From a virus, in IMG/VR virus record IMGVR_UViG_3300021233_000037, positions 1-46,018 of that record: a stretch of 46,018 bases of DNA. One strand, 5' to 3'. The notes under the pieces were generated by a model. That model saw only the letters and a program-made list of their open reading frames with translations. It searched no databases and was not told the DNA's origin. The position numbers were made by a program, and so were the translations under genes. This document shows positions 1 through 46,018 of this stretch, piece after piece. Numbering within the stretch: position 1 is the first letter of the stretch; every line of letters begins with the position of its first letter.

Positions 1-150
1 TGCATACCTAGATGCTAAGCACGAGGTAGCCATCATTACTAGTAAGAGTAACATTGCCAAAGATGTTGCAACTAAGATGGTTCGTGTTGCAGGTCTTGTG
101 CGTAATGCGTATGACACAGGTAAGATTGGTCTTACTATGTCACCACGTAC
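1..150. repeat. terminal redundancy, left copy
   Basis: Bases 1-150 correspond to 45869-46018. The first 125 bases are identical. The copies differ at left-copy positions 126, 146, 148 and 150, all within the last 25 bases of the right copy. The repeat joins the two halves of one intact gene in frame. This fits a circular or circularly permuted assembly with noisy read ends. A true 150-bp direct terminal repeat is possible but less likely, because the repeat lies inside a gene. Confidence 0.9.
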
Positions 151-283
151 CCTGATTAACTGGGGTCGTAAGTGTCAACGTTACGATACTAAGTATGCAT
201 TGCAGGTTGCATTCACTGAGAAGCTTACCCCTGATGATGTAAAATCTGTGCAAGAATTCTACGTCAAAGTATTTGGTGAGTAA
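2..283 (+). CDS. CobS-like AAA+ ATPase, C-terminal part (continues from right end)
   Basis: This is the 3' end of the ATPase that begins at 45102. The reading frame at base 2 continues exactly across the terminal overlap, giving a joined protein of about 349 aa. This portion is the helical lid and C-terminal region of a MoxR/CobS-type AAA+ protein, with no motif of its own. An internal ATG at 77 is not the start. A palindrome TTACTAGTAA (36-45) is read here as Ile-Thr-Ser-Lys. The stop TAA is followed by a GNRA-loop hairpin at 289-308. Confidence 0.9.
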   Translation, partial: AYLDAKHEVAIITSKSNIAKDVATKMVRVAGLVRNAYDTGKIGLTMSPRTLINWGRKCQRYDTKYALQVAFTEKLTPDDVKSVQEFYVKVFGE

Positions 284-288
284 TGCAC

Positions 289-308
289 GGCAGACCGCAA
301 GGTCTGTC
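289..308 (+). terminator. GCAA-tetraloop hairpin after the CobS-like gene
   Basis: GGCAGACC (289-296) pairs with GGTCTGTC (301-308) through one G-U pair, closing a GCAA loop. No U-tract follows, so it is a weak terminator at best and may instead be an RNA processing or stability element. Its right arm starts the dispersed repeat GGTCTGTCATCA. Confidence 0.5.
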
Positions 309-329
309 ATCATTAATTAAGGAGTAGTT

Positions 330-512
330 ATGGCTGATATTACAATGTGTGCAGGTGCAGATGAGAAACGTAATTTAATCTGCCCTATGCGTGATAAATG
401 TTATAGGTTTACAGCAAAAGTAAATGAATATAGACAAGCATACTTTACTGTAGTACCATACGAAGACCCTGAGTGTGCAGAGTTTTGGGATAATAAAGGG
501 AGAAATGAATGA
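330..512 (+). CDS. small cysteine-containing phage protein, unknown function
   Basis: The product is 60 aa with a good ribosome site (AAGGAG) upstream of ATG 330. Cysteines at residues 7, 18, 23 and 49 and the motif CPMRDKCYRF could form a small metal site. I have a general memory of similar short proteins next to phage primases, but no function is known to me. It overlaps the primase start by ATGA, so the two are probably translationally coupled. Confidence 0.75.
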   Translation: MADITMCAGADEKRNLICPMRDKCYRFTAKVNEYRQAYFTVVPYEDPECAEFWDNKGRNE

Positions 513-2601: not shown

Positions 2602-2846
2602 AACATAAGTTGCGAGTAGGTGATGTGTTTTTAGAGGAAGATGGTTGGGGTAGAGTAGTAATGAAGGCAGCTTTATCTTCTAATATTTATAAATGGTCAT
2701 ATATAAAACCACACACAATGTGCCCTACAGATGACTATAGAACATTAGAAGAAATGGAAATTAACCCTAGATGGAAATTCATGTATAACCTATGTGATAT
2801 GTTTGCTGACGCTAAAAAGGCATTAGATGACGACACTAGTACTTGA
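2586..2846 (+). CDS. hypothetical protein
   Basis: The product is 86 aa. It overlaps the helicase 3' end by 16 nt and the polymerase start by 20 nt, so it sits tightly inside the replication operon. It is rich in Lys, Asp and Trp, with no motif that I recognise. The start ATG 2586 follows GAGGT at a rather long spacing. A small replication accessory role is only a guess from position. Confidence 0.7.
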   Translation: MDDKVKHKLRVGDVFLEEDGWGRVVMKAALSSNIYKWSYIKPHTMCPTDDYRTLEEMEINPRWKFMYNLCDMFADAKKALDDDTST

Positions 2847-4734
2847 TTTAGAAACCACTATGGATTGTCCAGTTGGTAACAACAAGGCTAACCCTATGTG
2901 GATAGGTAATAGAATTATTGCCGCTGGTCTTTTGCGTGTAGGTGCATCAGGTGTAACTACCCATTATTCTAAAACAGGTGTAGGTACAGTTATTTTATTA
3001 GAAGAAATAGAGAAAGCATCATTAGTAGTTGGTCATAATATTAAGTTTGACTTACTATATATCTATCGTCTTACTAGTAACATTCTGCCACGCATATGGG
3101 ATACACAACTTGCAGCATACATTCTATCAGGACAGAGACATTTATATGCAAGTCTTGATGAGTTAACTGCTGAGTATATTGGCAAACATGCACTGAAGGA
3201 TGACAAGATTAAGGAGTATTGGAAAGCAGGTGTACGTACAGAAGACATACCAAAGACAGAACTTGAGAGCTATCTCCGTAGTGATGTGTACAACACCGAA
3301 GCTATCTTCAAGAAGCAGTGGTTAGAAGCAGAGGAACTAGGATTAATACCCTTAATGATGGTGCAGATGGATGCATTACGTGCCACCATTGAGATGAATC
3401 GTAATGGCATGTATGTAGATTGGGATTATGTAAGTAAGGCATGTGTTAAGTATGGTGACATAATCAGAGGTACAGCAGAGACAATTAGGCTTCTTGTAGG
3501 TGATGTTGACTACATGAGTCCTAAGCAATTGTCGTTATACTTTTTTGGAGGACAAGAGAAATATGTAGAACGTGAACTAGTAGGTGAGTATAAGAATGGC
3601 AAGCCTAAGTATAAGAACGTAGACAAGGTACGAACTGTTAAAGGTAAGTACATACCTAGCATTGAGGTAGGTAAGAGTGGCTATTACAGCGTTGATGATG
3701 CGGTGCTTAAAGGTCTGTCATCATCAGGTGATTTGTTTGCTGCTCAGTTATTAGTAATGCGTGATGCAAAGAAGATTAAAGAAACCTATTATGAGGGTCT
3801 TAAAGACTTGAGATTCCCTGATAATAATATCTATCCTAATCTTAATCATTGTTCTACAAAGACAGGTAGATTGTCTGCTACTAATCCTAACCTACAGAAT
3901 CAAACTGATGCAGGTGACGTTAAACGTGCATACATCAGTAGGTTTCCTAATGGTAAGATATTAGAGCTTGACTATTCACAACTAGAGATGGTGGCTCTAG
4001 CATATCTAGCTAACGATAAACAACTCATTGAGGATATTAACAATGGCAGAGATATGCACAGAGAACTGTACAACGGGATGTACGGACGCTATCCTACAGA
4101 TGCTGAACGTAAGCCATTCAAGCGGTTTAGTTTCTTGTTAGTGTATGGTGGTGGTGTGACAACTCTTATGGCGCAGAGTGGCTGTGATAGAGCAACAGCT
4201 AAGAAGTTTATTAGTACGTTCTACACTAGGTACAAAGGAGTGAAGCAATACCATGAATCAATTGTAAAGGAAGCAAATGACAAAGCAGTAATCAGTTACG
4301 AAGAAGGTGTTAGTGGGCCGCAATATACCTACTATCACCCTAGTCCAACAGGTAGACACTATGTGTTCAAGAAATACGCTAGTGACTACAAAGCAGGGGA
4401 ACTAACATTTAGTCCTACAGAACTTAAGAACTGGCCTATTCAGGGCTTTGCAACAGGTGATGTAGTGCCTATGATGGTAGGTATCTTGCTACGTAAGCTA
4501 GAAGAAGCTGGCCTATCACACAAAGCATTATTAGTAATGACTGTGCATGACAGCGTACTACTTGACACAGAAGATGAAGTGTGTTACGATGCAGCTTGTA
4601 TAGCTAAAGATACCTTGGAAAAAGCACCATTGTATCTTAAACAATACTTCAACATCGACTTTCCATGTCAACTAAAGGTTGGCGTAGACGTTGGTACAAC
4701 TTGGCAAGACAAAACAGCATTGGAGATTAAATGA
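2827..4734 (+). CDS. polA: DNA polymerase I family (PolA) with 3'-5' exonuclease
   Basis: This 635-aa replicative polymerase has an N-terminal proofreading domain: DLETT (D7, E9), GHNIKFDLL and the YLRSD..N motif. The polymerase palm shows motif A LDYSQLE (D382), motif B with K432, F436 and YGGG, and motif C VHDSV (D575). The residue matching E. coli F762 is Phe (F436), the form that discriminates against dideoxynucleotides. The start is ATG 2827, preceded by AAAAGG. Sites TTACTAGTAA (3071) and single-mismatch TTATTAGTAA (3748, 4528) lie inside, and so does a copy of the 12-mer GGTCTGTCATCA (3712). Confidence 0.95.
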   Translation: MTTLVLDLETTMDCPVGNNKANPMWIGNRIIAAGLLRVGASGVTTHYSKTGVGTVILLEEIEKASLVVGHNIKFDLLYIYRLTSNILPRIWDTQLAAYILSGQRHLYASLDELTAEYIGKHALKDDKIKEYWKAGVRTEDIPKTELESYLRSDVYNTEAIFKKQWLEAEELGLIPLMMVQMDALRATIEMNRNGMYVDWDYVSKACVKYGDIIRGTAETIRLLVGDVDYMSPKQLSLYFFGGQEKYVERELVGEYKNGKPKYKNVDKVRTVKGKYIPSIEVGKSGYYSVDDAVLKGLSSSGDLFAAQLLVMRDAKKIKETYYEGLKDLRFPDNNIYPNLNHCSTKTGRLSATNPNLQNQTDAGDVKRAYISRFPNGKILELDYSQLEMVALAYLANDKQLIEDINNGRDMHRELYNGMYGRYPTDAERKPFKRFSFLLVYGGGVTTLMAQSGCDRATAKKFISTFYTRYKGVKQYHESIVKEANDKAVISYEEGVSGPQYTYYHPSPTGRHYVFKKYASDYKAGELTFSPTELKNWPIQGFATGDVVPMMVGILLRKLEEAGLSHKALLVMTVHDSVLLDTEDEVCYDAACIAKDTLEKAPLYLKQYFNIDFPCQLKVGVDVGTTWQDKTALEIK

Positions 4735-5237: not shown

Positions 5238-6058
5238 AAACAATTGACACGCTAGTACCTGACATTTACTCTGTGGTTAGCGGTAGCATACAAAATGCTA
5301 TTAGTAACACTGAAGTAAAAGTCAGTTACGACAAGTGGTTTACACCACGGGATAGTAAGCGTGAGGAGGGTGTGTTATATTTTAGTGAGGTAGGCACACC
5401 ATGCCCACGTCAACTATGGTACAAATATAATGCACCTGAGATTGCAACTAAACCTGATGGTAATTTGTTGCTAAAATTCTTTTATGGTGATATACTTGAG
5501 GAACTGGTACTTAATGTGTCAGAGAATGCAGGTCACATTGTAGAGAAGAAACAGGAACGTGTTATCTATGACATAGGCAACAATTGGTATGTAAGAGGAC
5601 GCATTGATGCCATCATTGATGGAGTTGTGGTAGACGTTAAGAGTGTTACTAAATACTCCGAAGAAAAATTCAAGGGAGGTTTAGTAGATGACCCATTCGG
5701 CTATTATCAACAATTAAACGGCTATGCTAGTGCTCTTAATATTAATGCTGCTGGTTTTCTTACTATACAAAAAGAGTTAGGGCATGTTAACTACTACCCT
5801 ATTCAAGTAGACAGAGGTTTGTTTGCACAACAAGCAGACTTTGCAGTTGAGACAGTTACTAGTAATATTGGTGAGATTCCTAGACTCCCACCAGTAGCAC
5901 AAAGTAAGACCAGTAAGAACAAGAAACTATGTACAGCATGTAGCTATTGTTCTTTTAAAGGTGAGTGCTGGCCTGAGATGCGTACATTCTTGTATAGTCA
6001 TGGGCCGGAGTTTTTGGTAGAAGTTGTGGATGTTCCACGTGTAATGGAGGTAGTATAA
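5234..6058 (+). CDS. PD-(D/E)XK exonuclease with Fe-S-type cysteine set (Cas4/RecB-like)
   Basis: This 274-aa nuclease has the core RGRIDAIIDG then VVDVKS, giving D125, D134 and K136 as catalytic metal ligands. One cysteine near the start (C57 in TPCPRQLW) and a C-terminal cluster (C233, C236, C239, C245) match the arrangement that binds a 4Fe-4S cluster in Cas4 and AddB proteins. It probably degrades or resects DNA during phage recombination. No Cas1 or Cas2 is nearby, so it is not part of a CRISPR locus. It overlaps the upstream gene by ATGA. Motif copy at 5866. Confidence 0.85.
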   Translation: MKTIDTLVPDIYSVVSGSIQNAISNTEVKVSYDKWFTPRDSKREEGVLYFSEVGTPCPRQLWYKYNAPEIATKPDGNLLLKFFYGDILEELVLNVSENAGHIVEKKQERVIYDIGNNWYVRGRIDAIIDGVVVDVKSVTKYSEEKFKGGLVDDPFGYYQQLNGYASALNINAAGFLTIQKELGHVNYYPIQVDRGLFAQQADFAVETVTSNIGEIPRLPPVAQSKTSKNKKLCTACSYCSFKGECWPEMRTFLYSHGPEFLVEVVDVPRVMEVV

Positions 6059-6321: not shown

Positions 6322-7085
6322 AAATACTAGTAATACCTGATTGTCAAATTAAGGAAGGTGTTCCTACTGACCATCTGGTATGGGCAGGAAAGGCTATCTG
6401 TGATTATAAACCTGATGTTGTGATTAACTTAGGTGACTTCGCAGATATGCCTAGCCTATCTACACATGATAAAGTTGGTAGCAAATACTTTGAGGGGTTG
6501 AGATATAAGAAAGACATTGACGTAGCTAAAGAAGCTATGGCTAAGCTTCTTGCACCAATCAAAGAGATGCAGAACAAGCAGAAGAAGAACAAGGAGAAGG
6601 TTTATAAGCCACGTATGGTGATGCTTATGGGCAACCATGAGAACCGCATAGATAGGGCTGTAAACAACAATCCTACACTAGAGGGGCTTATATCAACTAA
6701 AGACTTGTGTTATGAAGACGATTGGGAAGTGCATGAGTTTCTACATCCTGTGTTCATTAATGGTGTTGGCTTTAATCATTATTGGCCTGTTGGGGCGATG
6801 GGACGACCTGCGAGTAGTGCGGCTACTATTATTAATAAGCTACATATGTCTTGTGTTGCTGGTCACCAACAAGGTAAGCAGGTTGCCTACAGTAAACGAG
6901 CAGATGGTAAACCAGTATGTGCTATAATTGCAGGTAGCTATTATCTACATGATGAAAGTTATATGGACAAGCTAAGCAATAGGCACTGGCGAGGTTTGGT
7001 TGTGTTGAATGAGGTTGAGGATGGTCATTTCGATGAGATGTTCTTGAGCATTGAATATCTTGGGAGAAAATATGAACTACTCTGA
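6318..7085 (+). CDS. calcineurin-like metallophosphoesterase
   Basis: The product is 255 aa. Metal-binding motifs are PDCQ (D8, Q10, where the usual form is DxH), LGDFAD (D40, D43), GNHEN (N106, H107) and AGHQQG further on. Many phages place such an enzyme beside the polymerase. The substrate is unknown: DNA ends, nucleotides or protein phosphate are all possible. The Gln in place of the first-motif His may change metal binding. A Lys-rich stretch (about residues 84-98) interrupts the core. A near-copy of the palindrome (ATACTAGTAA, 6324) encodes the first strand Ile-Leu-Val-Ile. Confidence 0.85.
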   Translation: MKILVIPDCQIKEGVPTDHLVWAGKAICDYKPDVVINLGDFADMPSLSTHDKVGSKYFEGLRYKKDIDVAKEAMAKLLAPIKEMQNKQKKNKEKVYKPRMVMLMGNHENRIDRAVNNNPTLEGLISTKDLCYEDDWEVHEFLHPVFINGVGFNHYWPVGAMGRPASSAATIINKLHMSCVAGHQQGKQVAYSKRADGKPVCAIIAGSYYLHDESYMDKLSNRHWRGLVVLNEVEDGHFDEMFLSIEYLGRKYELL

Positions 7086-8890: not shown

Positions 8891-9029
8891 TTGGCTTATT
8901 GCAATGATAGGTGTTGTGTACACAATAGTAGCTGCTCAGTTACTAGTAACAGGTAAGACAGGATTAGGTATAGCATTCATTGGTTATGCCTTAGGTAATG
9001 TAGGCTTGTACATGGAAGCTAGGTTGTAA
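8883..9029 (+). CDS. small two-helix membrane protein
   Basis: The product is 48 aa with hydrophobic segments at about residues 4-22 and 28-44, so it probably spans the membrane twice. It overlaps the previous gene by 8 nt and the next by TAATG. The palindrome TTACTAGTAA (8940-8949) is read here as Leu-Leu-Val within the first helix. Confidence 0.6.
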   Translation: MASWLIAMIGVVYTIVAAQLLVTGKTGLGIAFIGYALGNVGLYMEARL

Positions 9030-9896: not shown

Positions 9897-11788
9897 TGGA
9901 TAGTTACCAAACGTTTATTGCAAAGAGTAGATACTCACGTTACATTGATACTAGTAACAGACGTGAGCATTGGCCTGAAACTGTAGATCGCTACATGGGA
10001 TTCATGTACACACATCTTAAGAAGAAGATGGGTTATACAATGCCACCTGAATTGCGTGAAGAACTGCACAGTGCCATTCTTAACCATGAAGTGATGCCTT
10101 CTATGCGAGCCATGATGACTGCTGGTGAAGCATTGGAACGTGACAACACTGCTGGTTATAATTGTTCCTATCTGCCTGTGGATGATGTTAAAAGCTTTGA
10201 CGAAGCTATGTACATTCTGTTGTGCGGAACGGGTGTTGGATTCTCTGTAGAAAGTAAGTATGTTCAAAAATTACCTGATGTACCTGCACTTATGTTTAAC
10301 AGTGACACTACAATTGTTGTGTCAGACAGTAAGGCAGGTTGGGCAAAAGCTTTACGACAAATTCTTGCGTTGTTGTACAGCGGTGAAATCCCTAAGTGGG
10401 ACGTAAGTAAAGTACGCCCTGCTGGTACTCGACTTAAAACATTCGGTGGTAGAGCATCAGGCCCTGAGCCATTGGTTGACTTGTTTAAGTTTGTTACTAG
10501 TAAGTTTCAAGGTGCTGCTGGACGTAAGCTGACTAGCTTAGAGTGCCACGACATTATGTGTAAGATTGGTGAAGTAGTTGTAGTAGGTGGTGTACGTAGA
10601 TCAGCTATGATTAGCTTGTCTGATTTGTCTGATGATAGGATGCGTCATGCGAAAAGCGGCAATTGGTGGGAACGTGAGGGACAAAGAGCTTTGGCAAACA
10701 ACAGTGCATCTTATAATGACAAGCCCACAGTTGGGGAATTTATGTCAGAATGGTTGGCATTGTACCAATCTCACAGTGGAGAACGTGGGATTTTCTCAAG
10801 ACAAGCTGCTAAGCATACAGTTGAAAAGAATGGAAGACGAGATAGTAATTATGACTTTGGAACTAACCCATGTTCCGAGATCATATTGCGTCCATATCAG
10901 TTTTGTAACCTTACAGAAGTGGTTGCACGAGCTACAGACAACGGAGACACTCTTAAACGAAAAGTGCGACTTGCAACTATCTTGGGAACTTTCCAATCAA
11001 CTCTTACAGAATTTCCATATCTTAGAAAAATCTGGCAGAACAACACTGAGGCTGAGCGGCTTCTTGGAGTCTCCATCACGGGAATCCTCGACTGCCCTGT
11101 GTTGAACGATGTGAATGATGTAGGTCTGTCATCAAGATTAGAGATGCTACGTGATGTGGCTATTACTAGTAATAAGGAGTTTGCTGATGTACTTGGAATA
11201 CCGCAGTCTGCTGCGATCACTTGCGTTAAGCCTTCCGGTACTGTTTCTCAGCTTGTGGATAGTGCTTCAGGCATTCACGCTCGCCATAGTCAGTACTATA
11301 TCCGTCGTGTTCGTAATGATAACAAAGACCCTATCACTCAATTTCTTACAAACCAAGGCATACCTGCTGAAGCTGATGTGATGAAACCTTTGGATACTAC
11401 TGTCTTTAGCTTCCCTATGAAAGCACCTGATGGTTGTATTACACGTGATGAGTTGGATAGTTTTACTCACCTTAAGTTGTGGCTTGCTTATCAACGTCAC
11501 TGGTGTGAACATAAGCCTTCTGTAACTGTGTATGTCAAAGAAGAAGATTGGCCTTCAGTTGGTGCATGGGTGTGGGAACACTTTGATGAGATCAGTGGTA
11601 TTTCATTCCTACCTTGGGATGGTGGTACATACAAACAAGCACCCTATGAAGAAATCACACATCTTGAATATGAGAATATGAAAGATCAGATGCCTAAGAC
11701 AATTGATTGGGATTCATTCATTGAAACCACAGACAACGTAGAAGGTGCTCAGCAACTAGCTTGCGTAGCGGGGGTATGTGAAATCTGA
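9896..11788 (+). CDS. adenosylcobalamin-dependent (class II) ribonucleotide reductase
   Basis: This 630-aa enzyme reduces ribonucleotides to deoxyribonucleotides. Key residues match the monomeric Lactobacillus RTPR type: C90, NPCSE (C326, E328) and C337. The 326/337 spacing equals RTPR C408/C419. A C-terminal thiol pair C623/C628 has the same 5-residue spacing as C731/C736. No class I small subunit or class III activase is nearby, so B12 coenzyme must come from the host or the environment. Palindrome copies at 10494 and 11163, near-copy at 9948, and the 12-mer repeat at 11123. Confidence 0.9.
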   Translation: MDSYQTFIAKSRYSRYIDTSNRREHWPETVDRYMGFMYTHLKKKMGYTMPPELREELHSAILNHEVMPSMRAMMTAGEALERDNTAGYNCSYLPVDDVKSFDEAMYILLCGTGVGFSVESKYVQKLPDVPALMFNSDTTIVVSDSKAGWAKALRQILALLYSGEIPKWDVSKVRPAGTRLKTFGGRASGPEPLVDLFKFVTSKFQGAAGRKLTSLECHDIMCKIGEVVVVGGVRRSAMISLSDLSDDRMRHAKSGNWWEREGQRALANNSASYNDKPTVGEFMSEWLALYQSHSGERGIFSRQAAKHTVEKNGRRDSNYDFGTNPCSEIILRPYQFCNLTEVVARATDNGDTLKRKVRLATILGTFQSTLTEFPYLRKIWQNNTEAERLLGVSITGILDCPVLNDVNDVGLSSRLEMLRDVAITSNKEFADVLGIPQSAAITCVKPSGTVSQLVDSASGIHARHSQYYIRRVRNDNKDPITQFLTNQGIPAEADVMKPLDTTVFSFPMKAPDGCITRDELDSFTHLKLWLAYQRHWCEHKPSVTVYVKEEDWPSVGAWVWEHFDEISGISFLPWDGGTYKQAPYEEITHLEYENMKDQMPKTIDWDSFIETTDNVEGAQQLACVAGVCEI

Positions 11789-12290
11789 TAAGATTCTTAT
11801 CGCAGAGGCGTTAGGGGGTAGTGAGAAAGCTTACGCCACCCTAACGTCAATGTATAGACAGCGTATATACAGATTCATACGTAGGCGGGTGAATGATGAT
11901 GCACAAGCAGAGGAAGTTACTCAAGATGTATTCTTAGATGCATTCAGGTCTTTAGGGGCGTTTAAAGGGGATAGTCAGCTATATACATGGTTATGTACCA
12001 TAGCTAACAGAAAGTGTCTCAGACAGCCTTTAAATAGCCTTAAAACGGATGTAGAAATGATAGATGTAGTCACCCCTGAATCCCTGTTGGCAGTTAAGCA
12101 AAGGATAAAGAATGTGACTGATGTTTGTGATGAGTTGCCTAACAAACAGCGTAGAGCACTGTTGTTAAAAGAATACGAGGGGTTGTCCTATTTGGAAATC
12201 TCTGCTATATTGAGTTGTACACCAAGTTATGCAAAGAAACTGGTATGGCAAGCTAAGAGAACAATCAGGAGGAAGATGAATGACAAATGA
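11778..12290 (+). CDS. ECF-type RNA polymerase sigma factor
   Basis: The product is 170 aa, starting at GTG 11778 (the neighbouring ATG is followed at once by a stop) and overlapping the RNR by 11 nt. Sigma region 2 covers about residues 15-75 (AEEVTQDVFLDAFRSLGAF, LYTWLCTIANRKC). Region 4 covers about 115-165 (LPNKQRRALLL, GLSYLEISAIL, KKLVWQAKRTIRRK) with a helix-turn-helix. Regions 1 and 3 are missing, as in ECF sigma factors. It sits at the end of the early arm, and no phage RNA polymerase is present. I infer that it redirects host polymerase to middle or late promoters. Confidence 0.9.
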   Translation: MKSDKILIAEALGGSEKAYATLTSMYRQRIYRFIRRRVNDDAQAEEVTQDVFLDAFRSLGAFKGDSQLYTWLCTIANRKCLRQPLNSLKTDVEMIDVVTPESLLAVKQRIKNVTDVCDELPNKQRRALLLKEYEGLSYLEISAILSCTPSYAKKLVWQAKRTIRRKMNDK

Positions 12291-13512: not shown

Positions 13513-15876
13513 TTATCTCCACCATTTCTCAGTAGTGGATGAACGAGGAGTAGCGTTACTAGTAGCAGGTTTCTTAGTTTGTTTACTCTCATCAATTAGT
13601 TTTCCTGTTGCCTCACGTTTAGACGTAGGTGCTGCGGGTGCAGGTTGAACATTAGCTTTTTCTTCAGCAAGTCTCATTGCTTCTTGATTAGCTAATGCGC
13701 CAGCAGGTATTGGTGCAGCACCAGTGAAGTCAGTGGTAGGAGAAGGTGCAACAGGTGCATTACTATAGAAACCATTATATGATTGTCTGTTATTAATAAT
13801 GTTAGCAAACTCATTAGCTACAGCTACAGGGTTTTCTTCTGTAAGCATTACTCTACCAAACACTAAGTTAGATAGCATAGCCTTACTTTGTTTATTAAAT
13901 TCTTTAACTGCTGCTTCTTCTTTCGCAGCAAGTTGTCTACGTTGTTCACTGAGAGGTACACCATTTCTTAATGCAGACATTTCTTTCTCTGTAAGAGGTG
14001 TTTGCATAGCAACAATTTGACCACTAGGTGTTACTCCTAATTTAATCGTTGTACCATGCTTCATCTCTAAGCCATCTCTCAAAGATGACATAGCCATCAC
14101 ATTATTACGTGCAGCTTTACTGACATTATCTTTAATGATCGCTTGGTTCTCTGTTGGCAACAATTTAATTTTATCACCAAGTTTCTTATAGTCATTAGCA
14201 AGTATCTGTGAGTTAGCACCTGACTCTACGTTAGTAGACAAAGAAGAACTAATAACATTAGCTTCTAAGGCTGACAACACTTGTCCTTTAGTTGCTTTAT
14301 CTAGCGCAACATTAGCATTAGATTGGATAACGGAATGAGCAGCTTTAACTTCTTCAGGTTTAATATCAGGAGACACTGCTACAGGTGCAGGGTCTTTACT
14401 GGCAGCATCAATAACAGTTGTAACATTACGTAACGCATCAGTACCAGCAGAATTACTAGTAATGCCGTTAGTGTTGTCCAACAATATTTTCTCTTGCTTA
14501 ACCATAAAGTTATAGAAGTCTTTATTAGTCAACTCAAGATTTTTACGTTGTTCACCACCTGCCCAGTATGCCATAACCAAACTATTATTCTGCATAGCAG
14601 CTTGTTGTTGAATAGCAAGGTTAATCAAGTCACGTTGTTCTTTGATACTCTTATCACGATAGTTAGACATGATGGTTGACATAGCAGCTAGACCAACACC
14701 CTTATCATCAGCATACATTCTAAGCTGTAAATCAGCAGCACTATTAATGTCTGCTTTTAACTGGTCACGCTTGCTACTAGTAACGTTAGGGTTATTTGCT
14801 AAGTATTTATCAATCTCAGTAATGGACGCTATACGTGCTTGTTCAATGTTAGTCTTCATCTGTGCATTGTGCATTTTAATTTGTGTATCAAATGCGGCAG
14901 GGTTAACATTAATATTTTCGCCTTTAGCCATCAATGCTAATACGGGCTTATATACATTCTCTAAACTAGACACAGAAGCAGAAGTTACATTGACACCTAA
15001 ATTACCTTGGAACATAGCAACAAAACTACCACGCAGTTGATCTGCTTCTAAATCACTCTGTGCATGTAAGCCACTGATCTGAGTAGTAACAGCATCTACA
15101 CCTGTCTTCATAGCAATGTTCTGGTTGAATGCTCTAATTCTGCTGTCGTACTCTGGCCTGTTTGATTTATACAAATTGAACAATTCTTCTTGACTACCAA
15201 ATGTACCTGCTTTAGATGCTGCTTCAATATCCTTAAGCACTATCTTCATTGGGTCAAATTCAGTGTCTTTCTTTTCTTTAGTGAAACGTTCTTTAACATA
15301 CTGCATCTCAGCCCATCTATCAGCATAAGGCAAGCCAGTAATAGAACCAACTTTTTCACGGATACTATCAGCAAGTCCGGGATATTTAGCAATTGCTTTA
15401 CGTGTCAAAGCACTTACACGTGTAACATATTCTTCATTAGACATACCACCCATAGCAGCATCACGTAAACGTTTAATCTCTTGGTCATATGTACCTACAA
15501 TTGCAAGTTTCTGTTCACCAAAATTACGTTGTGCATCAGCTTGTGATGCAGGAAGTCTATCAGTAGTACTGAAAGGCGCACCAGCAGCCTTCTCACGTTC
15601 TGCCATAATTGTAGGTAAATCTTGTGCAGCTTTCTCTGCTTGCATTCCCCTCTCTAAAAACTCAGAGGTAGTCTGTTCAGCACTAGCTAATGTTTTACCT
15701 ACATCATACGCAACATATTGTTCTGCTATTACACCAGCAGCTTTTAACAACGTACTAGTAGCATTAGCAGCCATCCTAGCACCCTCTGCTCTAGCTTCAA
15801 CACCTTTGGCTAACGTGCCTACATTAGCTTGTGCAGGTTCTATGCTTTGTGTTATATCTTTTCCGTATAATGCCAT
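13513..15876 (-). CDS. internal virion (core/ejection) protein
   Basis: The product is 787 aa, Ala-, Lys- and Gln-rich, almost wholly helical by eye, with a low-complexity Pro/Thr/Lys tail ending in EKWWR. By size, composition and order between the giant internal protein and the transglycosylase it corresponds to T7 gp15-like ejection proteins. No sequence motif proves this. Palindrome at 14453, near-copies at 13556 and 14774. Confidence 0.65.
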   Translation of the reverse strand: MALYGKDITQSIEPAQANVGTLAKGVEARAEGARMAANATSTLLKAAGVIAEQYVAYDVGKTLASAEQTTSEFLERGMQAEKAAQDLPTIMAEREKAAGAPFSTTDRLPASQADAQRNFGEQKLAIVGTYDQEIKRLRDAAMGGMSNEEYVTRVSALTRKAIAKYPGLADSIREKVGSITGLPYADRWAEMQYVKERFTKEKKDTEFDPMKIVLKDIEAASKAGTFGSQEELFNLYKSNRPEYDSRIRAFNQNIAMKTGVDAVTTQISGLHAQSDLEADQLRGSFVAMFQGNLGVNVTSASVSSLENVYKPVLALMAKGENINVNPAAFDTQIKMHNAQMKTNIEQARIASITEIDKYLANNPNVTSSKRDQLKADINSAADLQLRMYADDKGVGLAAMSTIMSNYRDKSIKEQRDLINLAIQQQAAMQNNSLVMAYWAGGEQRKNLELTNKDFYNFMVKQEKILLDNTNGITSNSAGTDALRNVTTVIDAASKDPAPVAVSPDIKPEEVKAAHSVIQSNANVALDKATKGQVLSALEANVISSSLSTNVESGANSQILANDYKKLGDKIKLLPTENQAIIKDNVSKAARNNVMAMSSLRDGLEMKHGTTIKLGVTPSGQIVAMQTPLTEKEMSALRNGVPLSEQRRQLAAKEEAAVKEFNKQSKAMLSNLVFGRVMLTEENPVAVANEFANIINNRQSYNGFYSNAPVAPSPTTDFTGAAPIPAGALANQEAMRLAEEKANVQPAPAAPTSKREATGKLIDESKQTKKPATSNATPRSSTTEKWWR

Positions 15877-33297: not shown

Positions 33298-33479
33298 TTT
33301 TTATATCCACCACCTTTAGCTTTATATTCTCTAGCTAAAAGTTGTGCCTTACGAGCACTCCATTCACCGGGGTCGCCACCCTTGCTACCTGCTTTAATAC
33401 GCTCAAACAACGCTTTACGCATTGTAGGTTTGGTGTACACACCAGCAGCATTAACTTTAGATTTAGTAGCTTTCTTCAC
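33294..33479 (-). CDS. small Lys/Gly-rich phage protein
   Basis: The product is 61 aa. The block KGGDPGEWSARKAQLLAREY with KGGGYKK at the end looks like a conserved small domain seen in phage and some bacterial proteins, function unknown. Overlaps neighbours at both ends by ATGA-type junctions. Confidence 0.7.
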   Translation of the reverse strand: MKKATKSKVNAAGVYTKPTMRKALFERIKAGSKGGDPGEWSARKAQLLAREYKAKGGGYKK

Positions 33480-33742
33480 TTCATCTTCCCTGTTTTAGTG
33501 CGTGAAAAACTTCTATTGTTACTCTTACTAGTAACACGCAAATTACTACGCTTGTTGCCACCACCTTTACTAAGCGGTTTCTTATGGTCTACATCCTTAC
33601 CATCACCCTTGCTAACTTTACCTTCTTCCATAAGTTTACGTCTAGCACCATTACGTTTAGCCCTATCTTTAACAACAGATGGTTTACCATCATAGGCTTG
33701 TTGTTTTTTATAGTCTCTTTTACCATTCGTCATATAAGGCAT
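33476..33742 (-). CDS. small basic protein with HNH-like remnant
   Basis: The product is 88 aa. GKDVDHKKPLSKGGGNKRSNLRV resembles the D-H...N part of an HNH finger, but the usual second zinc cysteines and final His are absent, so nuclease activity is doubtful. The C-terminus SNNRSFSRTKTGK is basic. It may now be a structural or DNA-binding protein. Palindrome at 33525 encodes Val-Thr-Ser-Lys. Confidence 0.65.
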   Translation of the reverse strand: MPYMTNGKRDYKKQQAYDGKPSVVKDRAKRNGARRKLMEEGKVSKGDGKDVDHKKPLSKGGGNKRSNLRVTSKSNNRSFSRTKTGKMK

Positions 33743-35557: not shown

Positions 35558-35880
35558 TCATGCATCTTTCCACGTGCATAGGCTTGTGCAGCCATAAATG
35601 CTACCACAATAGTAGACATACCAGCAGAGAATGTAGTGGCTAGTCCCATAATGGCTGTTACTTTATCCAAAGCAACAAAGGGTGTAGCAAAATAACACAT
35701 AAGAACAAATGGAAGACCTAAAGCAAACCAAGCCATAATACGCTGTTGGTCAGCCATTTTATCCATATTCTCAATCATCATCATTCGTTCTGAACGAGAC
35801 AATTCCTCATCAGTAATAGTACCATCACCATTAGAGTCAAATTGATTGTATGCTGAGTTTTGTTCTAGAGTTTTTGTCAT
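35554..35880 (-). CDS. EF-hand membrane protein, holin candidate
   Basis: The product is 108 aa. Residues 15-26 form a full EF-hand loop (D15, N17, D19, T21, E26). Two membrane segments follow (about 48-68 and 73-98). It lies next to the spanins and endolysin, so it may be a holin whose action responds to calcium. That role is inference. Overlaps Rz by ATGA. Confidence 0.6.
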   Translation of the reverse strand: MTKTLEQNSAYNQFDSNGDGTITDEELSRSERMMMIENMDKMADQQRIMAWFALGLPFVLMCYFATPFVALDKVTAIMGLATTFSAGMSTIVVAFMAAQAYARGKMHE

Positions 35881-36172
35881 TTAGTTCCTTTCTAAGTTTC
35901 TCAATATCTTGTTTAAGTCTATCCATATTCTTAATACTTTGGTCTATATCTATTTTAGTTTCATATAGTTTAGAATAAAGCAATCCTGTTATTGGTAAAA
36001 GTATTACTAGTAACACACATGCTGCTAACCAACCTAAGTATTTAAATCCTAAATCTCGTTCTACTTGTGGAGATACAGAAACCATAGGTGGAGGTATCCA
36101 GCTAGAATTAACACTGCCACTGTTATTGTTATTAGTATTTCTATTTCTTGCTCCGTTTGCCTTTGTTGCCAT
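35837..36172 (-). CDS. single-span membrane protein with coiled coil
   Basis: The product is 111 aa. The N-terminus is Asn/Ser-rich, one membrane segment covers about residues 45-66, and a charged coiled coil follows (72-100). It begins 112 nt inside the previous gene, an unusually long overlap. Palindrome at 36004 is read as Leu-Leu-Val in the membrane segment. A role in lysis or membrane is suggested by context only. Confidence 0.6.
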   Translation of the reverse strand: MATKANGARNRNTNNNNSGSVNSSWIPPPMVSVSPQVERDLGFKYLGWLAACVLLVILLPITGLLYSKLYETKIDIDQSIKNMDRLKQDIEKLRKELNDKNSRTKLSIQSI

Positions 36173-41099: not shown

Positions 41100-41250
41100 A
41101 ATAGTACTACATTATACATATATATATAATATATAGTAATAGTATATATAGTTATAGTATATATAAGTATATTATACTTTACTATATAATATAACCCCGC
41201 TATATATATAGTTATATAATATATATTTATATAATATTACTAGTAACATC
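41100..41250. other. AT-rich block, candidate DNA unwinding element
   Basis: The block is nearly all A and T with many TATATA runs. ATATAGTTAT occurs three times, starting at 41146, 41206 and just after the block at 41251. It lies about 45 bp before the DnaA boxes, the arrangement of many bacterial origins. Confidence 0.6.
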
Positions 41251-41275: not shown

Positions 41276-41294
41276 TTTAGGTTAGCATTTATAC

Positions 41295-41436: not shown

Positions 41437-41617
41437 TGTAAGGTTGGTGTAAGGTTGATCGTTTACATTTCAGTCATCGGTTAGCGCAGTGGTTCATTAC
41501 TAGTAACTAGCAGGGTTAATAGCCCTACAGTTGACAAGGTTTTAAATCACTGTTAATATCGGTGCTTAGGTTGATCGATCGGGGTTGACCTAGAGATTGT
41601 AAGTTTCATGTAAGGTT
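41437..41617 (+). repeat. TGTAAGGTT direct repeats (iteron-like)
   Basis: TGTAAGGTT starts at 41437, 41448 (11-bp step) and 41609. GGTTGATCG occurs at 41454 and 41569. The set flanks the promoter and could be iterons for a replication protein or operator sites. Confidence 0.5.
41531..41559 (+). promoter_or_regulatory. sigma70-like promoter for the rightward arm
   Basis: TTGACA (41531-41536), 17-bp spacer, TAATAT (41554-41559; four of six matches). The first box is perfect. A TTACTAGTAA copy ends 14 bp upstream of it (41507-41516). It would start the early transcript, with a leader of more than 400 nt. Confidence 0.65.
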
Positions 41618-41678
41618 TACGTGATACTATCAAGGCTCTAAACAAGTGTATGTTACCGCTACACTATAAAGAAAAGTA

Positions 41679-41890
41679 ACTCGCAAGCTTTGACCCTAGA
41701 TGGCGCGAATTCTAGGCGAGTGCGATAGGCGCAAATGAACCATAATAGGTAGAGAATCCATGCATATGTGACAGCTTGTAATATGCATGCCGGTGCGGTA
41801 GAGACGCTATCGGGCAGGGTATCCAACTGCGAGCATGCTATCTTCCCTTATGGTAGAGCTTGAATCCCGATGGCAAGGGAGATATGCAAG
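41679..41890 (+). ncRNA. structured leader RNA or ncRNA, unknown
   Basis: Several stems can form in the rightward transcript. Two nested stems pair 41679-41684 with 41716-41721 and 41696-41700 with 41711-41715. A perfect 9-bp stem pairs 41759-41767 with 41781-41789. Short stems lie at 41795-41814. A long interrupted stem joins 41833-41849 to 41875-41887. No open frame with a ribosome site covers it. It is not a clear tRNA. It may be a riboregulator, a packaging signal or a replication primer. Confidence 0.45.
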
Positions 41891-41983
41891 CACGAAAACT
41901 CTAGGGTTTTCTACAGTGTGTTACTAGTAGCATACTGTAATCAAGCCTTAGTAAATCAAATCAAACTGTCAAAGGAAATCATC

Positions 41984-42499
41984 ATGTCATACGCAAATGA
42001 ATTACGCACTGCATTGTCTACATCCAAGGATGCCAAGGACGCTAGCAGGAATGCAGGGGAAGGCATATGGGCAAATTATGTGCGGTCTATGTGCTATCCA
42101 ATAACACCACGTAATGCGGAGGAAGTAGATAGTCAACACAAATCACTGGTAGATAACCTGAATAATATCAGGGAATTATCCAAGGATGAGAAGAATAGTC
42201 TGCGGTCTGCTAAATGCGTGGTAAGCAAAGCCATTACTAATAACGTTGACGTGTGGCAACGCACGGATGATGGTGCGGTTAAGAATGACGACAATGGGCA
42301 TCCATTGCCTAAGGGTAAATCAGAATTGAACGAAGCTAAGTCTGACTTTGACCGCATGATGGCATTCATCGAACAAGCGGGTAAGAAGTATGACAGCGAC
42401 ACACGGGAACAATTCACCCGTGAGCAAATGTCTGCCATCGCTGATGCATATGCAGCACTGGCTCATCGCATGGTGGAAGACTACACTGCAACTAACTGA
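41984..42499 (+). CDS. hypothetical protein, first gene of the rightward arm
   Basis: The product is 171 aa from ATG 41984 with AAAGGA upstream. Upstream codons in frame overlap the structured leader and are not likely translated. Helical, charged, with no motif I know. As the first early gene it may act on the host. Confidence 0.7.
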   Translation: MSYANELRTALSTSKDAKDASRNAGEGIWANYVRSMCYPITPRNAEEVDSQHKSLVDNLNNIRELSKDEKNSLRSAKCVVSKAITNNVDVWQRTDDGAVKNDDNGHPLPKGKSELNEAKSDFDRMMAFIEQAGKKYDSDTREQFTREQMSAIADAYAALAHRMVEDYTATN

Positions 42500-42507
42500 G
42501 AGTGACT

Positions 42508-42525: not shown

Positions 42526-42555
42526 TGTTACTAGTAACACAATCAAGGGGATGTT

Positions 42556-42696
42556 ATGTACGTTATCTACTGGGAAGAAAACGATGAATTGCAAGCTGTA
42601 GAATTGACTACACTTGAAGCGGCACAATGGGTATGGGATGACTTGTACATGTCATGCAAAGCACTGCTATGTTTTAGACCACAAGGGGACAAATGA
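42556..42696 (+). CDS. short hypothetical protein
   Basis: The product is 46 aa with AAGGGG at good spacing before ATG 42556. Acidic with several Trp. Ends in ATGA overlap with the next gene. Not recognised. Confidence 0.55.
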   Translation: MYVIYWEENDELQAVELTTLEAAQWVWDDLYMSCKALLCFRPQGDK

Positions 42697-42857
42697 TGTA
42701 TACGTTATCTAACATGGTGTTATCTGTCGCTATCTCGCTGGTAATTGCCTATTGCATTAGTGTAGTGGGTGGCATGTATATTGCCCTTATGTTACTAGTA
42801 ATAGGTGGTTTTCTACTGGGTATGCAAGTATCAGAAGTTTTATCAAGGGGTAAATGA
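42693..42857 (+). CDS. small two-span membrane protein
   Basis: The product is 54 aa, with hydrophobic segments at about residues 8-27 and 29-45. AAGGGG upstream. Palindrome 42792-42801 is read Leu-Leu-Val within the second segment, as in the similar membrane peptide at 8883. Confidence 0.6.
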   Translation: MMYTLSNMVLSVAISLVIAYCISVVGGMYIALMLLVIGGFLLGMQVSEVLSRGK

Positions 42858-42858
42858 C

Positions 42859-43140: not shown

Positions 43141-43213
43141 TACTGTGGTAATATTCCTAGCCATAACATATGTGGGGTGGTTCTTTTGGGAGGTGTGGAA
43201 TGACAACGAATAG
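43124..43213 (+). CDS. 29-aa single-span membrane peptide
   Basis: GGAG precedes ATG 43124. Residues 7-23 are hydrophobic, followed by an acidic tail. It overlaps both neighbours. Small size makes it uncertain. Confidence 0.45.
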   Translation: MLDTIDTVVIFLAITYVGWFFWEVWNDNE

Positions 43214-43379
43214 AGTGAGGGAATTCAAAACAAATGAGGAAGCTGATGCAATTATGCATGAGATAGAAGAATTCTTTCAACGTACACCTAATGATGAGGT
43301 AGTAGAAAACTGGCTAGATAGCGAGTATCATCGTATATTCGTTACCTATATGTATCCTGACGTTACAAAGGTGAATTAA
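43200..43379 (+). CDS. small acidic protein
   Basis: The product is 59 aa from ATG 43200 with a strong GGGAGG site. The frame is open from 43170 but that ATG is inside the peptide gene. Charged helices. It overlaps the vWA gene by TAATG. Not recognised. Confidence 0.6.
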   Translation: MTTNRVREFKTNEEADAIMHEIEEFFQRTPNDEVVENWLDSEYHRIFVTYMYPDVTKVN

Positions 43380-45100
43380 TGAATTATCTAGATGTAGTCA
43401 ACTTTGAGACATATGTCGCAGGTTGTGCTAGGAATAGTGGCATCAAAGTTGTGTGGGACAAACCCGAAGGTACGCCACGTACCGATGGACGCACAATGTG
43501 GTTGCCATCCATTACTAGTAGCACTCCCGCTGAATGGCTGACACGTATGCGTTACTATGTAAAGCATGAGACAAGCCACATTAGCTATACCGACTTTGAG
43601 ATGCTTAACAAGCACCGACCTACAGGGTTATTGGCTCTGATTAATAACCTTATTGAAGACCATCGTATTGACTTCATTAACGATAGTCAGTATGCAGGTG
43701 ATGCCATTACTAGTAACAACTACTGGGTGTTGTATGCAGATGACATAGTTAAGCGTATGAAATCTACAGATAAAGACTTATCAGATCAACAACGCACTGT
43801 GTTACCCTTGTTTGTGTGGGATGCAGCACTACGTACATGGATTGGTAATGCTGCTGAGACACGTGATGTTATGGGTAGTATGCTAGATGATGATGGTATT
43901 GACAAGCTTCATAAGCTTGAGAAATATACCGATGAGTTACTAGTATTGCGCTGTGACACAGGTCTAGATGTAGGTGAACGTGTGTTTGATTTAGCTAAGC
44001 GTATCCTAGCTGACTTGTTTGATGCTAACCCTGAGGACTACACTGAGGAAGCTAAGCCTAAGGGTGATGGTGGTGAGGGCAAAGGTAAGGGTAAGGGTGA
44101 TGGTGAGTCAGATGGTGGTGAGGAAGCAGGTGCAGGTGGTGATGATGAGGATAGACTTGTAGACGTAGAGAAGCTTATCAAAGCCATTGGGCATGAGCAT
44201 AAGCCTAGTCGTACAGGTATTCACCTTAAGCTAGACAAAGCCGATACCAAGGGTTCATACACCATACCACACAAGGATGAGTACATTATCGTGCGATTCC
44301 CTGAGTTACATCGTGCAGTTAAGGGTCGTGGTGAGGGCTATTTCAAATCAGATAGTGTATCCAAATATATTACTAGTAATGCTAAGCCACTGGCTAATCA
44401 ATTGCGTATGCGATTGCAGACACGTAGCAGAGATAGGTATGAGTACGGATTGAAGCGTGGTAAGTTACACACAGGTAGTTTGCATAAACTATTGTCAGGT
44501 AACACTGAAGCTAGTACCCGTGTGTTCCGTAAACGTATCGTATCTGATACACTTGACACGGCTGTTACATTGCTTGTAGATTGTAGCGGTAGTATGTCAG
44601 GTAAGAAGTATGAGATGGCATGTGCTGGTGCTGGTGCTATGGCAGAAGCATTAAAGCCCCTTAACATACCATTCAATGTGTTAGGTTTCACTAACTCAGA
44701 AGGTAATGACGACCCTTTGATATGGGTATTCAATGACTTCGGTGAACGTGTATCTACACCCGATCTAGTTAAACGTTTTGCTGTAGCTAGTGGTTGTTTG
44801 TGGGAGAATACAGATGGTGATGCGTTAGCGTATGCATCGTATGTATTGGGTATGCGCCCTGAACATCGTAAGGTGTTACTAGTATTGTCTGATGGTAGTC
44901 CCGCAGGACGTGATTCACATGGTGACATTACAGCGTATACAGCACGTGTAGTTAAAGACATTGAAGCTAGTGGGGTAGACATATATGGTATTGGTATTTG
45001 TGATGATAATGTTCGTATGTTTTATAAGAAGTATGAAGTAGTTACAGACATTGCTAAACTTTCAGGGACAATTCTTTCAACTTTAGATCGGAGTATTTAA
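43379..45100 (+). CDS. von Willebrand A-domain protein, CobT-like
   Basis: The product is 573 aa. The N-terminus has YVKHETSHISY (HExxH-like, H63, E64, H67) and NLIEDHRIDF, both typical of CobT-type vWA proteins. A Gly/Lys/Glu-rich linker covers about residues 218-262. The C-terminal vWA domain has the metal site DCSGSMS (D401, S403, S405). It is one base away from the AAA+ gene, its likely partner. No CobN is encoded, so cobalt insertion as such is unlikely. Palindromes at 43707 and 44370, near-copies at 43512, 43937 and 44876. Confidence 0.85.
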   Translation: MNYLDVVNFETYVAGCARNSGIKVVWDKPEGTPRTDGRTMWLPSITSSTPAEWLTRMRYYVKHETSHISYTDFEMLNKHRPTGLLALINNLIEDHRIDFINDSQYAGDAITSNNYWVLYADDIVKRMKSTDKDLSDQQRTVLPLFVWDAALRTWIGNAAETRDVMGSMLDDDGIDKLHKLEKYTDELLVLRCDTGLDVGERVFDLAKRILADLFDANPEDYTEEAKPKGDGGEGKGKGKGDGESDGGEEAGAGGDDEDRLVDVEKLIKAIGHEHKPSRTGIHLKLDKADTKGSYTIPHKDEYIIVRFPELHRAVKGRGEGYFKSDSVSKYITSNAKPLANQLRMRLQTRSRDRYEYGLKRGKLHTGSLHKLLSGNTEASTRVFRKRIVSDTLDTAVTLLVDCSGSMSGKKYEMACAGAGAMAEALKPLNIPFNVLGFTNSEGNDDPLIWVFNDFGERVSTPDLVKRFAVASGCLWENTDGDALAYASYVLGMRPEHRKVLLVLSDGSPAGRDSHGDITAYTARVVKDIEASGVDIYGIGICDDNVRMFYKKYEVVTDIAKLSGTILSTLDRSI

Positions 45101-45101
45101 C

Positions 45102-46018
45102 ATGGCAGTAGAAATCAACGACAAAGTAGCTAAGGCTATCGCAGCACACTTGGGTAAAGTACCTGCTACACCCGATGTTACACTTACCCCTACTGATAAG
45201 GTAGAGAAGACAATTACATTGTCAGATGGTCAGAAGCTATTCAGTAAGGTGTTTGGCTACGTGCCTAGCTTCGGTGACTTTGCTGTCACTGTATTGGCTG
45301 ATAGCAGTGATGCAGAGGTAGCACGCCTTGTACCTAAGGCAGACCCTGACTATGTGGTGCAACGTAATGAAGCAGCATTACTAGTAGCAGGTATCGAAGA
45401 CAACGATAAGAGCTTACTTACAGGCCCTACAGGTAGTGGTAAATCATCACTGGTTAAGTATGTGTGTGCTAAGCTTAATCGTCCGTTCATTCGTATCAAT
45501 ATGTCAGGTGACATTGAGAGTGCGTCATTGTTCGGTATGCTTACTGCTAGTGTGGGTGTAGGTACTGAGTGGAAAGATGGTGCTATCACTGAAGCATGTA
45601 AGTATGGTGCTGTGTGCCTTGTAGATGAGTGGGAACTGATGCCACCTGAGATTGCTATGGGTATGCAGAACTTGTTAGAAGATGGTGGTTATCTCTATCT
45701 CAAAGAGAAGCCCGGTACGTCTACTGATCGTACCATTGTGCCAGATGCACACTTCCGTCTGGTGTTTGCAGGTAACACTGTTGGACAAGGTGACACTACT
45801 GGTGCATTCTCAGGTGTTGGTATTCAGAACAGTGCGACTATCGACCGATTCACTAACACTATCCGTCTTGCATACCTAGATGCTAAGCACGAGGTAGCCA
45901 TCATTACTAGTAAGAGTAACATTGCCAAAGATGTTGCAACTAAGATGGTTCGTGTTGCAGGTCTTGTGCGTAATGCGTATGACACAGGTAAGAATGGTCT
46001 TACTATGTCACCAAGGAA
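45102..46018 (+). CDS. MoxR/CobS-like AAA+ ATPase, N-terminal part (continues at base 2)
   Basis: The joined protein is about 349 aa. Walker A GPTGSGKSS (108-116), Walker B CLVDEWE (D174, E175) and a sensor-1 FAGNT segment are clear. Such ATPases act with vWA proteins to remodel or load cofactors into large complexes; CobS with CobT drives cobalt chelation in bacteria. The frame at the extreme right end has base differences from the left copy, probably end errors. Near-palindrome at 45378 and a full copy at 45904 (same as 36). Confidence 0.9.
   Translation, partial: MAVEINDKVAKAIAAHLGKVPATPDVTLTPTDKVEKTITLSDGQKLFSKVFGYVPSFGDFAVTVLADSSDAEVARLVPKADPDYVVQRNEAALLVAGIEDNDKSLLTGPTGSGKSSLVKYVCAKLNRPFIRINMSGDIESASLFGMLTASVGVGTEWKDGAITEACKYGAVCLVDEWELMPPEIAMGMQNLLEDGGYLYLKEKPGTSTDRTIVPDAHFRLVFAGNTVGQGDTTGAFSGVGIQNSATIDRFTNTIRLAYLDAKHEVAIITSKSNIAKDVATKMVRVAGLVRNAYDTGKNGLTMSPR
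45869..46018. repeat. terminal redundancy, right copy
   Basis: Same sequence as 1-150 with four differences clustered in the last 25 bases (45994, 46014, 46016, 46018). The left copy gives the better protein (Met-Ser-Pro-Arg-Thr continues), so the right end is likely error-prone. Confidence 0.9.

Follow-up and report, generated by a model that had tools for sequence, protein, structure and literature searches.

Temperate mycobacteriophages of cluster A (e.g. L5 and Bxb1) carry up to 30 sites of one repressor across the genome (PMC6550527, PMC9283540). These stoperators are asymmetric 13-mers that are bound by a monomer, oriented with transcription and located in promoters and short intergenic spaces; their motifs are similar, not identical, between relatives and shift with genetic distance, and the repressor gene has a conserved site upstream (PMC6550527, PMC9283540). 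A short palindrome in large genomic excess, HIP1 (GCGATCGC), occurs in cyanobacteria (PMC4390886). Here we describe a 10-bp palindrome, TTACTAGTAA, with the core TACTAGTA, which is dispersed over a stretch of viral DNA of 46,018 bases (IMG/VR record IMGVR_UViG_3300021233_000037, hereafter the window). The palindromes are best explained as predicted target sites with the consensus TRTTACTAGTAAYA, and the pattern of the motif among related phages points to a previously undescribed phage protein, probably EP, which is predicted to bind throughout its own genome.

Excess and selection of the palindrome

The window contains 22 perfect copies of TTACTAGTAA and 21 copies with a single mismatch. Since the first 146 nt recur at the window end (one mismatch; unique genome of 45,868 bp), the sites at 36 and 45904 are a single site and 21 perfect copies are unique. 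An earlier note on this DNA had counted the same 21, at the same coordinates, and at least 19 single-mismatch copies. The core TACTAGTA was observed 39 times versus 1.35 expected from base composition, and all other 8-bp palindromes have at most six copies each. The consensus around the core is T-R-T-TACTAGTA-A-Y-A. Markov over-representation scores are uninformative because the sub-words are enriched as well. The supposed rarity of CTAG, cited by the earlier note as an added surprise, does not apply to the window, where 184 copies stand against 165 expected. Literature searches by sequence string and by topic returned no paper on the motif among the matches listed.

In genes, 34 copies of TACTAGTA (one site counted twice owing to overlapping ORFs) compare with a mean of 4.4 and a maximum of 10 in 500 within-gene shuffles of synonymous codons, and 15 copies of TTACTAGTAA compare with 1.5. 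The gene set consisted of longest-ORF calls; repeats added the conserved ORF 33476-33742 and two weaker ORFs, and with the conserved ORF included the core was found 35 times versus 4.3 in 100 shuffles. Of the 39 sites, 33 to 36 are genic, on both strands, and 3 to 6 intergenic, according to the small ORFs that are counted. Genic sites use two reading frames (24-25 and 9-11 sites), the third being unused because a site there would make a stop. These results support selection on DNA rather than on protein. The earlier note had described the same distribution over genes of both strands, two frames and intergenic DNA and had excluded selection on protein; its view withstood both tests that it had named as possible refutations, the codon-aware shuffle and conservation of the sites in relatives, which was significant in five of seven.

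Seven clade-A records (37.6-45.4 kb) hold 13-36 copies of TACTAGTA each. In 79 terminase loci (L005-L083) 233 copies were found versus 24.2 expected, with 15 loci holding none, and 39 loci around the first early gene hold 514 versus 12.4 expected. Where genes are alignable at 86-89% nucleotide identity, the relatives G002, G003 and G004 (the latter analysed over 40,000 of its 40,846 bases) have kept 20/22, 26/30 and 19/26 of the window's sites, as compared with 52, 51 and 47% of control 8-mers. At about 68% identity, 4/16 (G011), 9/21 (G006), 6/17 (G010) and 4/21 (G013) alignable sites are kept, as compared with 9-10% of control 8-mers, and of the 57 sites in alignable genes of these four genomes together 34 are not shared with the window. 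Being kept at high identity and mostly unshared at about 68%, individual sites are thus held in the short term and replaced in the long term, with many sites remaining throughout. The motif-less relatives MEP402 and MW202697 each have one TTACTAGTAA and two TACTAGTA, with 1.5-1.6 of the latter expected.

Half-sites and clade-specific words

Over the 39 sites of the window the half-sites are independent: the two sides agree at position -2 in 13 sites versus 15.5 expected, and at position -1 in 22 versus 22.0 expected. In G025 (clade C) the half-sites GTTCCT and GTTCTT combine freely, giving 13 copies of GTTCCTAGGAAC in 46.8 kb, five of GTTCTTAAGAAC and 13 mixed sites; mixed half-sites are found in clades B and C. 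As base-paired RNA would couple the two halves, their independent variation argues for DNA read by a dimer and not for an RNA stem. A double-stranded DNA target read by a homodimer, predicted from the sequences, and a network of such sites under selection are the best-supported parts of our interpretation. Dyad symmetry, independent half-sites and selection on the sites thereby strengthen the dimeric DNA-binding protein suggested in the earlier note.

Sister clades use related words, namely GTTACTAGTAAC, GTTCCTAGGAAC, GTTCTTAAGAAC and mixed sites. The genome G024 (73% terminase identity) has no TACTAGTA and 16 copies of TCTTAAGA, 11 of which are GTTCTTAAGAAC. TCTTAAGA occurs one to three times in each of the six terminase loci nearest to G024 (L112-L117, with one stray TACTAGTA in L113), is absent from L118-L155 and occurs 2-13 times in each of nine CobS loci (L196-L204, with one stray TACTAGTA in L197). 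Clade D, a more distant group (G035, G036, G037, G045 and G048) with primase, helicase, polymerase, CobT and CobS in common, again has GTTACTAGTAAC, in 2-5 copies per genome. The words change stepwise at two positions of GTTMYTARKAAC, while the outer GTT/AAC and the central TA are constant. In a tree of CobS, whose two outgroup branches are very long and whose root is unsure, the motif types clustered with five changes (least possible four, shuffled mean 10.3).

G035, G037 and G048 (L514-L522) combine the early/replication module with another structural module and are thus mosaics between phage groups; the G037 terminase has about 22% identity, and profiles detected no capsid or portal homologue in these three genomes. 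A 14-mer recruited 118 viral loci, five of which hold 4-5 sites and no homologue of the window (L412, L419, L429, L461 and L485). L412, L419, L429 and L461 have proteins in common among themselves or with clade D (L429 shares two with the clade-D locus L506) and may thus represent the structural portion of genomes like those of clade D. Of six contigs with a 306-aa ORF, four have a site no more than a few bases past its stop (L412 2693, L461 1965, L457 5804, L429 2919), as if marking the transcript end; L434 and L459 have no site after the stop.

EP as a candidate binder

Genes of G037, G025, G026 and the window that encode up to 1,200 aa served as profile seeds, and presence of the resulting families was scored in 22 genomes. 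The EP family was present in all 16 chosen motif-bearing genomes (six of clade A, two high-GC members of clade A, three of clade B, one of clade C and four of clade D) and in none of six motif-less relatives, and it was the only family with that pattern among those reaching clades A, B, C and D. A separate iteration from clade A and G024 found EP in 21 of 23 motif-bearing records; the two records without it (G013 and G044) are also without CobT, i.e. without the early region. ICP2 and PQ867845 have CobT and CobS and neither the motif nor EP. E-values of the EP profile after iteration are circular; less circular values are 1.4e-9 for G026, 1e-3 for G025 and 1.7e-7 for L479. Most members have the core R-S-A-K-S-V ... 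G ... G-K in common. EP is considered the best candidate for the binder because of its co-occurrence with the motif, its position and the site in its leader. The features concerned are:

41922-41929, no strand, TACTAGTA site at the tip of the leader hairpin, its first base 62 bp before the EP start; may serve autoregulation
41912-41939, strand +, leader hairpin (12 pairs) enclosing this site; relatives show compensatory changes
41984-42499, strand +, first early gene, encoding EP (171 aa), a candidate DNA-binding protein whose function is predicted

Of 32 clade-A rows, 24 have a site that begins 54-65 bp before the EP start. Counted by distinct contigs (L030, L152 and L177 being a single one), the figure is 22 of 30; this count left out EP ORFs with duplicate sequence, of less than 100 aa, with no suitable Met or with less than 200 nt upstream. 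G031 and L166 have a one-mismatch version of the site at this position. The leader site tops the 12-pair hairpin, seven pairs of which show compensatory changes among 14 loci, all chosen for holding the site. By eye, window positions 41640-41983 upstream of EP resemble a structured RNA common to clade-A relatives, with stems changing on both sides; Rfam gave no match in the window at E-values up to 1. A perfect promoter-like sequence (TTGACA, 16 nt, TATAAT) lies upstream of EP in G026 (L261) and G027 (L266). Two diverged EP copies per genome occur in G024 (L101, L102) and G025 (L259), one being first in the early operon and the other directly upstream of CobT; in five clade-D records EP is directly upstream of CobT or overlaps it.

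AlphaFold2 models of the window EP (pLDDT 81) and of a clade-B EP (L202, pLDDT 85) are mainly helical, and a viral structure library matched the EP model to unnamed proteins only. Pfam yielded a sub-threshold match to the BsuBI/PstI HTH model (E 0.027). Three EP queries had no homologue below E 0.6 in 50,697 phage records, and with the clade-A alignment no homologue was confirmed among 84,980 prokaryote species genomes.

Other proteins were rejected as binders. The ECF-like sigma factor (11778-12290), a candidate after a first comparison had found it in clades A and B alone, is missing from four clade-A records as well as from clades C and D, and the motif-less relatives have CobT, CobS, primase, helicase, polymerase and the SSB-like protein. 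The sigma factor occurs in 9/13 clade-A and 3/3 clade-B records and in none of the six motif-less relatives. CobT-like and CobS/CbbQ-type proteins occur in 21 of the 23 motif-bearing records; in the window, the CobT-like VWA protein is encoded at 43379-45100 and the CobS/CbbQ-type ATPase from 45102 across the join to 283.

Placement, possible role and described systems

By gene homology, the window is an uncultured Zobellviridae-like phage. Its terminase and capsid are homologous to those of Zobellviridae members; the nearest named phages by terminase are the Methylophilales phages MEP401/MEP402 (57%), and the capsid is up to 51% identical to that of Siovirus phages. A near-identity DNA search of the phage collection gave no match for bases 1-25000 and two matches of less than 100 bases each for bases 20001-45000, and hence no close relative. 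PHROGs and Pfam identified primase, DnaB-like helicase, polymerase, Cas4-like exonuclease, thymidylate synthase and ribonucleotide reductase, furthermore the ECF-like sigma factor, CobT and the C-terminus of the CbbQ/CobS-type ATPase, and the structural major head protein, head-tail adaptor and terminase. Phage_integrase (PF00589) was above cut-off in none of 14 genomes, a search that left serine integrases and partition genes aside; the match in G025 stayed below threshold (E 5e-4). These phages are therefore probably lytic. Early genes lie on the + strand from about 41.9 kb, across the join, to 13.0 kb, and late genes on the - strand from 40.7 to 13.1 kb. Between the two operons, at 41110-41240, the window has AT-rich TATATATA tracts, and such words are frequent in several relatives (e.g. 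G006, G024 and L018).

The sites are unevenly placed. Densities in the window are 1.24/kb in the early, 1.11/kb in the distal late and 0.14/kb in the proximal late region (26.6-41.2 kb), the 14.6 kb of proximal late genes holding 2 of 39 sites (P 6e-5). The proximal late density is 0.07-0.15/kb in G002, G003, G004, G006 and G011, 0.23/kb in G013 and 0.45/kb in G010. In G024, 12 of 16 sites lie in about 18 kb of early genes (P 0.005). Of the positions at which the core is synonymously possible, 18/35 are occupied in early, 16/29 in distal late and 0/9 in proximal late genes (P 0.003). Sites are seldom less than 200 bp apart: intervals below 150 bp number 0/38 in the window (5.2 expected) and 6/212 in eight clade-A genomes (26.5 expected), four of them below 100 bp, and intervals below 300 bp number 0/56 in three clade-B genomes (8.8 expected) and 1/30 in G025 (4.7 expected). 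Besides the EP leader site, the window holds:

36-45, no strand, TTACTAGTAA site, same site as 45904
546-555, no strand, TTACTAGTAA site, core kept in 6/7 clade-A relatives
1270-1277, no strand, TACTAGTA core site
2102-2111, no strand, TTACTAGTAA site
3071-3080, no strand, TTACTAGTAA site
5856-5865, no strand, TTACTAGTAA site
6325-6332, no strand, TACTAGTA core site
8940-8949, no strand, TTACTAGTAA site
9949-9956, no strand, TACTAGTA core site
10494-10503, no strand, TTACTAGTAA site
11163-11172, no strand, TTACTAGTAA site
13557-13564, no strand, TACTAGTA core site
14453-14462, no strand, TTACTAGTAA site
14775-14782, no strand, TACTAGTA core site
15753-15760, no strand, TACTAGTA core site
16708-16717, no strand, TTACTAGTAA site
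17443-17450, no strand, TACTAGTA core site
18550-18557, no strand, TACTAGTA core site
19660-19667, no strand, TACTAGTA core site
20184-20193, no strand, TTACTAGTAA site
21280-21287, no strand, TACTAGTA core site
22424-22431, no strand, TACTAGTA core site
23230-23239, no strand, TTACTAGTAA site
23495-23502, no strand, TACTAGTA core site
25879-25886, no strand, TACTAGTA core site
26572-26581, no strand, TTACTAGTAA site
33525-33534, no strand, TTACTAGTAA site within the conserved ORF 33476-33742 (-)
36004-36013, no strand, TTACTAGTAA site within the weakly conserved ORF 35837-36172 (-), or intergenic
41237-41246, no strand, TTACTAGTAA site, intergenic
41497-41506, no strand, TTACTAGTAA site, intergenic
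42528-42537, no strand, TTACTAGTAA site, intergenic
42792-42801, no strand, TTACTAGTAA site within the small ORF 42693-42857 (+), or intergenic
43513-43520, no strand, TACTAGTA core site, kept in 6/6 alignable clade-A relatives
43707-43716, no strand, TTACTAGTAA site
43938-43945, no strand, TACTAGTA core site
44370-44379, no strand, TTACTAGTAA site
44877-44884, no strand, TACTAGTA core site
45379-45386, no strand, TACTAGTA core site, kept in 6/6 alignable clade-A relatives
45904-45913, no strand, TTACTAGTAA site, repeat of 36; core kept in 6/6 alignable clade-A relatives

We tentatively propose, as a reading that falls a little short of even confidence, that a phage-encoded homodimer, probably EP, binds genome-wide and silences or road-blocks transcription in a stoperator-like manner. 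EP would be made early in infection and restrict its own production by way of its leader site. As it accumulates, it would fill 30-40 spaced sites in the early, middle and distal late parts of the genome, where bound EP would most likely act as a road-block or silencer of transcription, and the proximal late operon (head, portal, terminase and tail fibre) would be left almost free. The silencing or road-block role is suggested by the regional bias and by the parallel with stoperators. We infer all three elements of this reading, i.e. EP as the binder, a phage-encoded binder and the silencing of transcription. The wider proposal, that EP founds an undescribed DNA-binding family whose specificity drifts along with its sites (GTTACTAGTAAC, GTTCCTAGGAAC, GTTCTTAAGAAC), dozens of them being rewritten, and that it provides a silencing or organising layer in a lytic phage, is possible but rather doubtful.

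Several results weigh against this reading. Conservation of the sites was not significant in G011 (P 0.06) and G013 (P 0.15), and the conservation, spacing, leader-site and regional tests treat related genomes, with sites shared by descent, as independent. Only profiles from the two EP copies of G025 reached four clades, those from the window, G026 and G037 EP did not, and the homology of distant EP members therefore depends on profile iteration. The site-bearing fragments L412, L419, L429, L461 and L485 yielded no EP. The leader site is missing upstream of EP in G028, in G029, in 4/4 clade-D rows and in 2/3 clade-B rows. EP is without a recognised DNA-binding domain (Pfam sub-threshold only, best E 0.012) and without a PHROG match below 0.027. 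Foldseek with both models against PDB, as well as VIA re-ranking of the window EP model against PDB, yielded nothing above common helical arrangements, a missing match that does not show a new fold. No residue of EP is tied to the motif change. With missed ORFs included, the proximal late occupancy becomes 1/10 (P 0.015) or 2/11 (P 0.048); in G010 the proximal late density exceeds the distal late density; and in the window sites are as frequent in the distal late as in the early region, contrary to the prediction of a simple early-off road-block. A chromosome-organising role would agree about equally well with the spacing and with the many sites of the distal late region.

Such an architectural role, in which a phage-encoded dimer would use the same sites as spaced anchors to fold, segregate or shield the replicating chromosome, is unlikely yet the most serious competitor. 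Nucleoid-like packaging, which the earlier note had listed among its suggestions, is a possible role. The mutual avoidance of sites, the filling of about half of the synonymously possible positions in the early (18/35) and distal late (16/29) regions, the location inside genes on both strands and a palindrome without direction would all suit it. Anchors would be needed everywhere, however, and sites are scarce in the proximal late third; moreover, the EP leader site in many clade-A contigs looks regulatory.

Improbable in our view is a host protein, recruited or titrated by the phage, as the binder, with clade differences reflecting different hosts. EP has no known DNA-binding domain and viral contigs with neither a window homologue nor a detected EP carry several sites, both of which would fit a host binder. 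Nonetheless, one word is kept over phages of 35-50% GC, which suggests several hosts, and changes of the word track the phage lineage. A scan with TGTTACTAGTAACA of the 84,980 prokaryote species genomes returned at least 119 stretches, with scattered organisms in the 80 matches listed and no bacterial genome with an excess of the word among these 80; 105 of the at least 119 stretches hold the seed site alone, and at least 137 TACTAGTA were counted, 28.9 being expected besides the seeds. A palindrome shared with a host genome, which the earlier note had considered, is thus not supported by the listed bacterial matches, which are scattered and chance-like.

An element working in RNA, as a hairpin GUUA-CUAG-UAAC or as UACUAGUA bound in transcripts, has little probability. 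The compensated hairpin of the EP leader (7/12 pairs, in the 14 sequences chosen for the site) would be in its favour, but the outer positions of the window's 39 sites do not pair (13 versus 15.5 and 22 versus 22.0) and clades B and C have mixed half-sites. Even less probable is a modification or self-recognition mark for a methyltransferase or nuclease, another suggestion of the earlier note. Short palindromes are typical targets of such enzymes; however, a partly degenerate dyad of 12-14 bp is longer than usual, mutual avoidance of sites would be unexpected, and no methyltransferase was found among the 36 of 59 CDS that were given to PHROGs or Pfam, the other 23 not being searched. A by-product of codon or amino-acid bias can practically be dismissed, since, although 24 of 33 genic sites read Thr-Ser, the shuffles give 4.4 versus 34, intergenic sites and two frames are in use, and other palindromes substitute clade by clade.

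The phages compared here may offer a natural record of a DNA-recognition specificity that shifts along with some 20-40 genomic sites, and G025 is one genome that holds both half-site forms and their mixtures. They suggest that networks of binding sites spanning the whole genome are not confined to temperate mycobacteriophages and can occur in lytic phages too, and they single out EP as the candidate binder.

Short palindromes dispersed on the chromosome and bound by dimers are also known as the sites of SlmA, Noc, MatP and ParB. The sequences of those sites differ from the window word. Dispersed protein-binding sites of a phage are a known kind of system; the binder in the present case may be new. 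HIP1 is found in cellular genomes with a proposed methyltransferase link, whereas the window word is longer, resides in phages and is spaced; no cellular genome among the listed matches of the scan showed an excess of the word, which is therefore not known to belong to the HIP1 type. The comparison with stoperators, raised in the earlier note, stands in part. Like cluster A, the window has many sites of one motif over the genome (39), and the motif drifts among relatives. The site that precedes EP by 54-65 bp in 24 of 32 clade-A rows may be a further parallel, namely to the site upstream of the stoperator repressor gene, EP being a candidate binder. Unlike the asymmetric, oriented stoperators of promoters and intergenic spaces, the site in the window is dyad-symmetric with equal, independent half-sites, has no orientation and is genic in 33-36 of 39 cases, and, with PF00589 above cut-off in 0/14 genomes, these phages are probably not temperate. 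No homology of EP to a repressor was seen, no search having been aimed at repressors. The system of the window thus falls outside the cluster A stoperator system, but by analogy it may work in a similar way.

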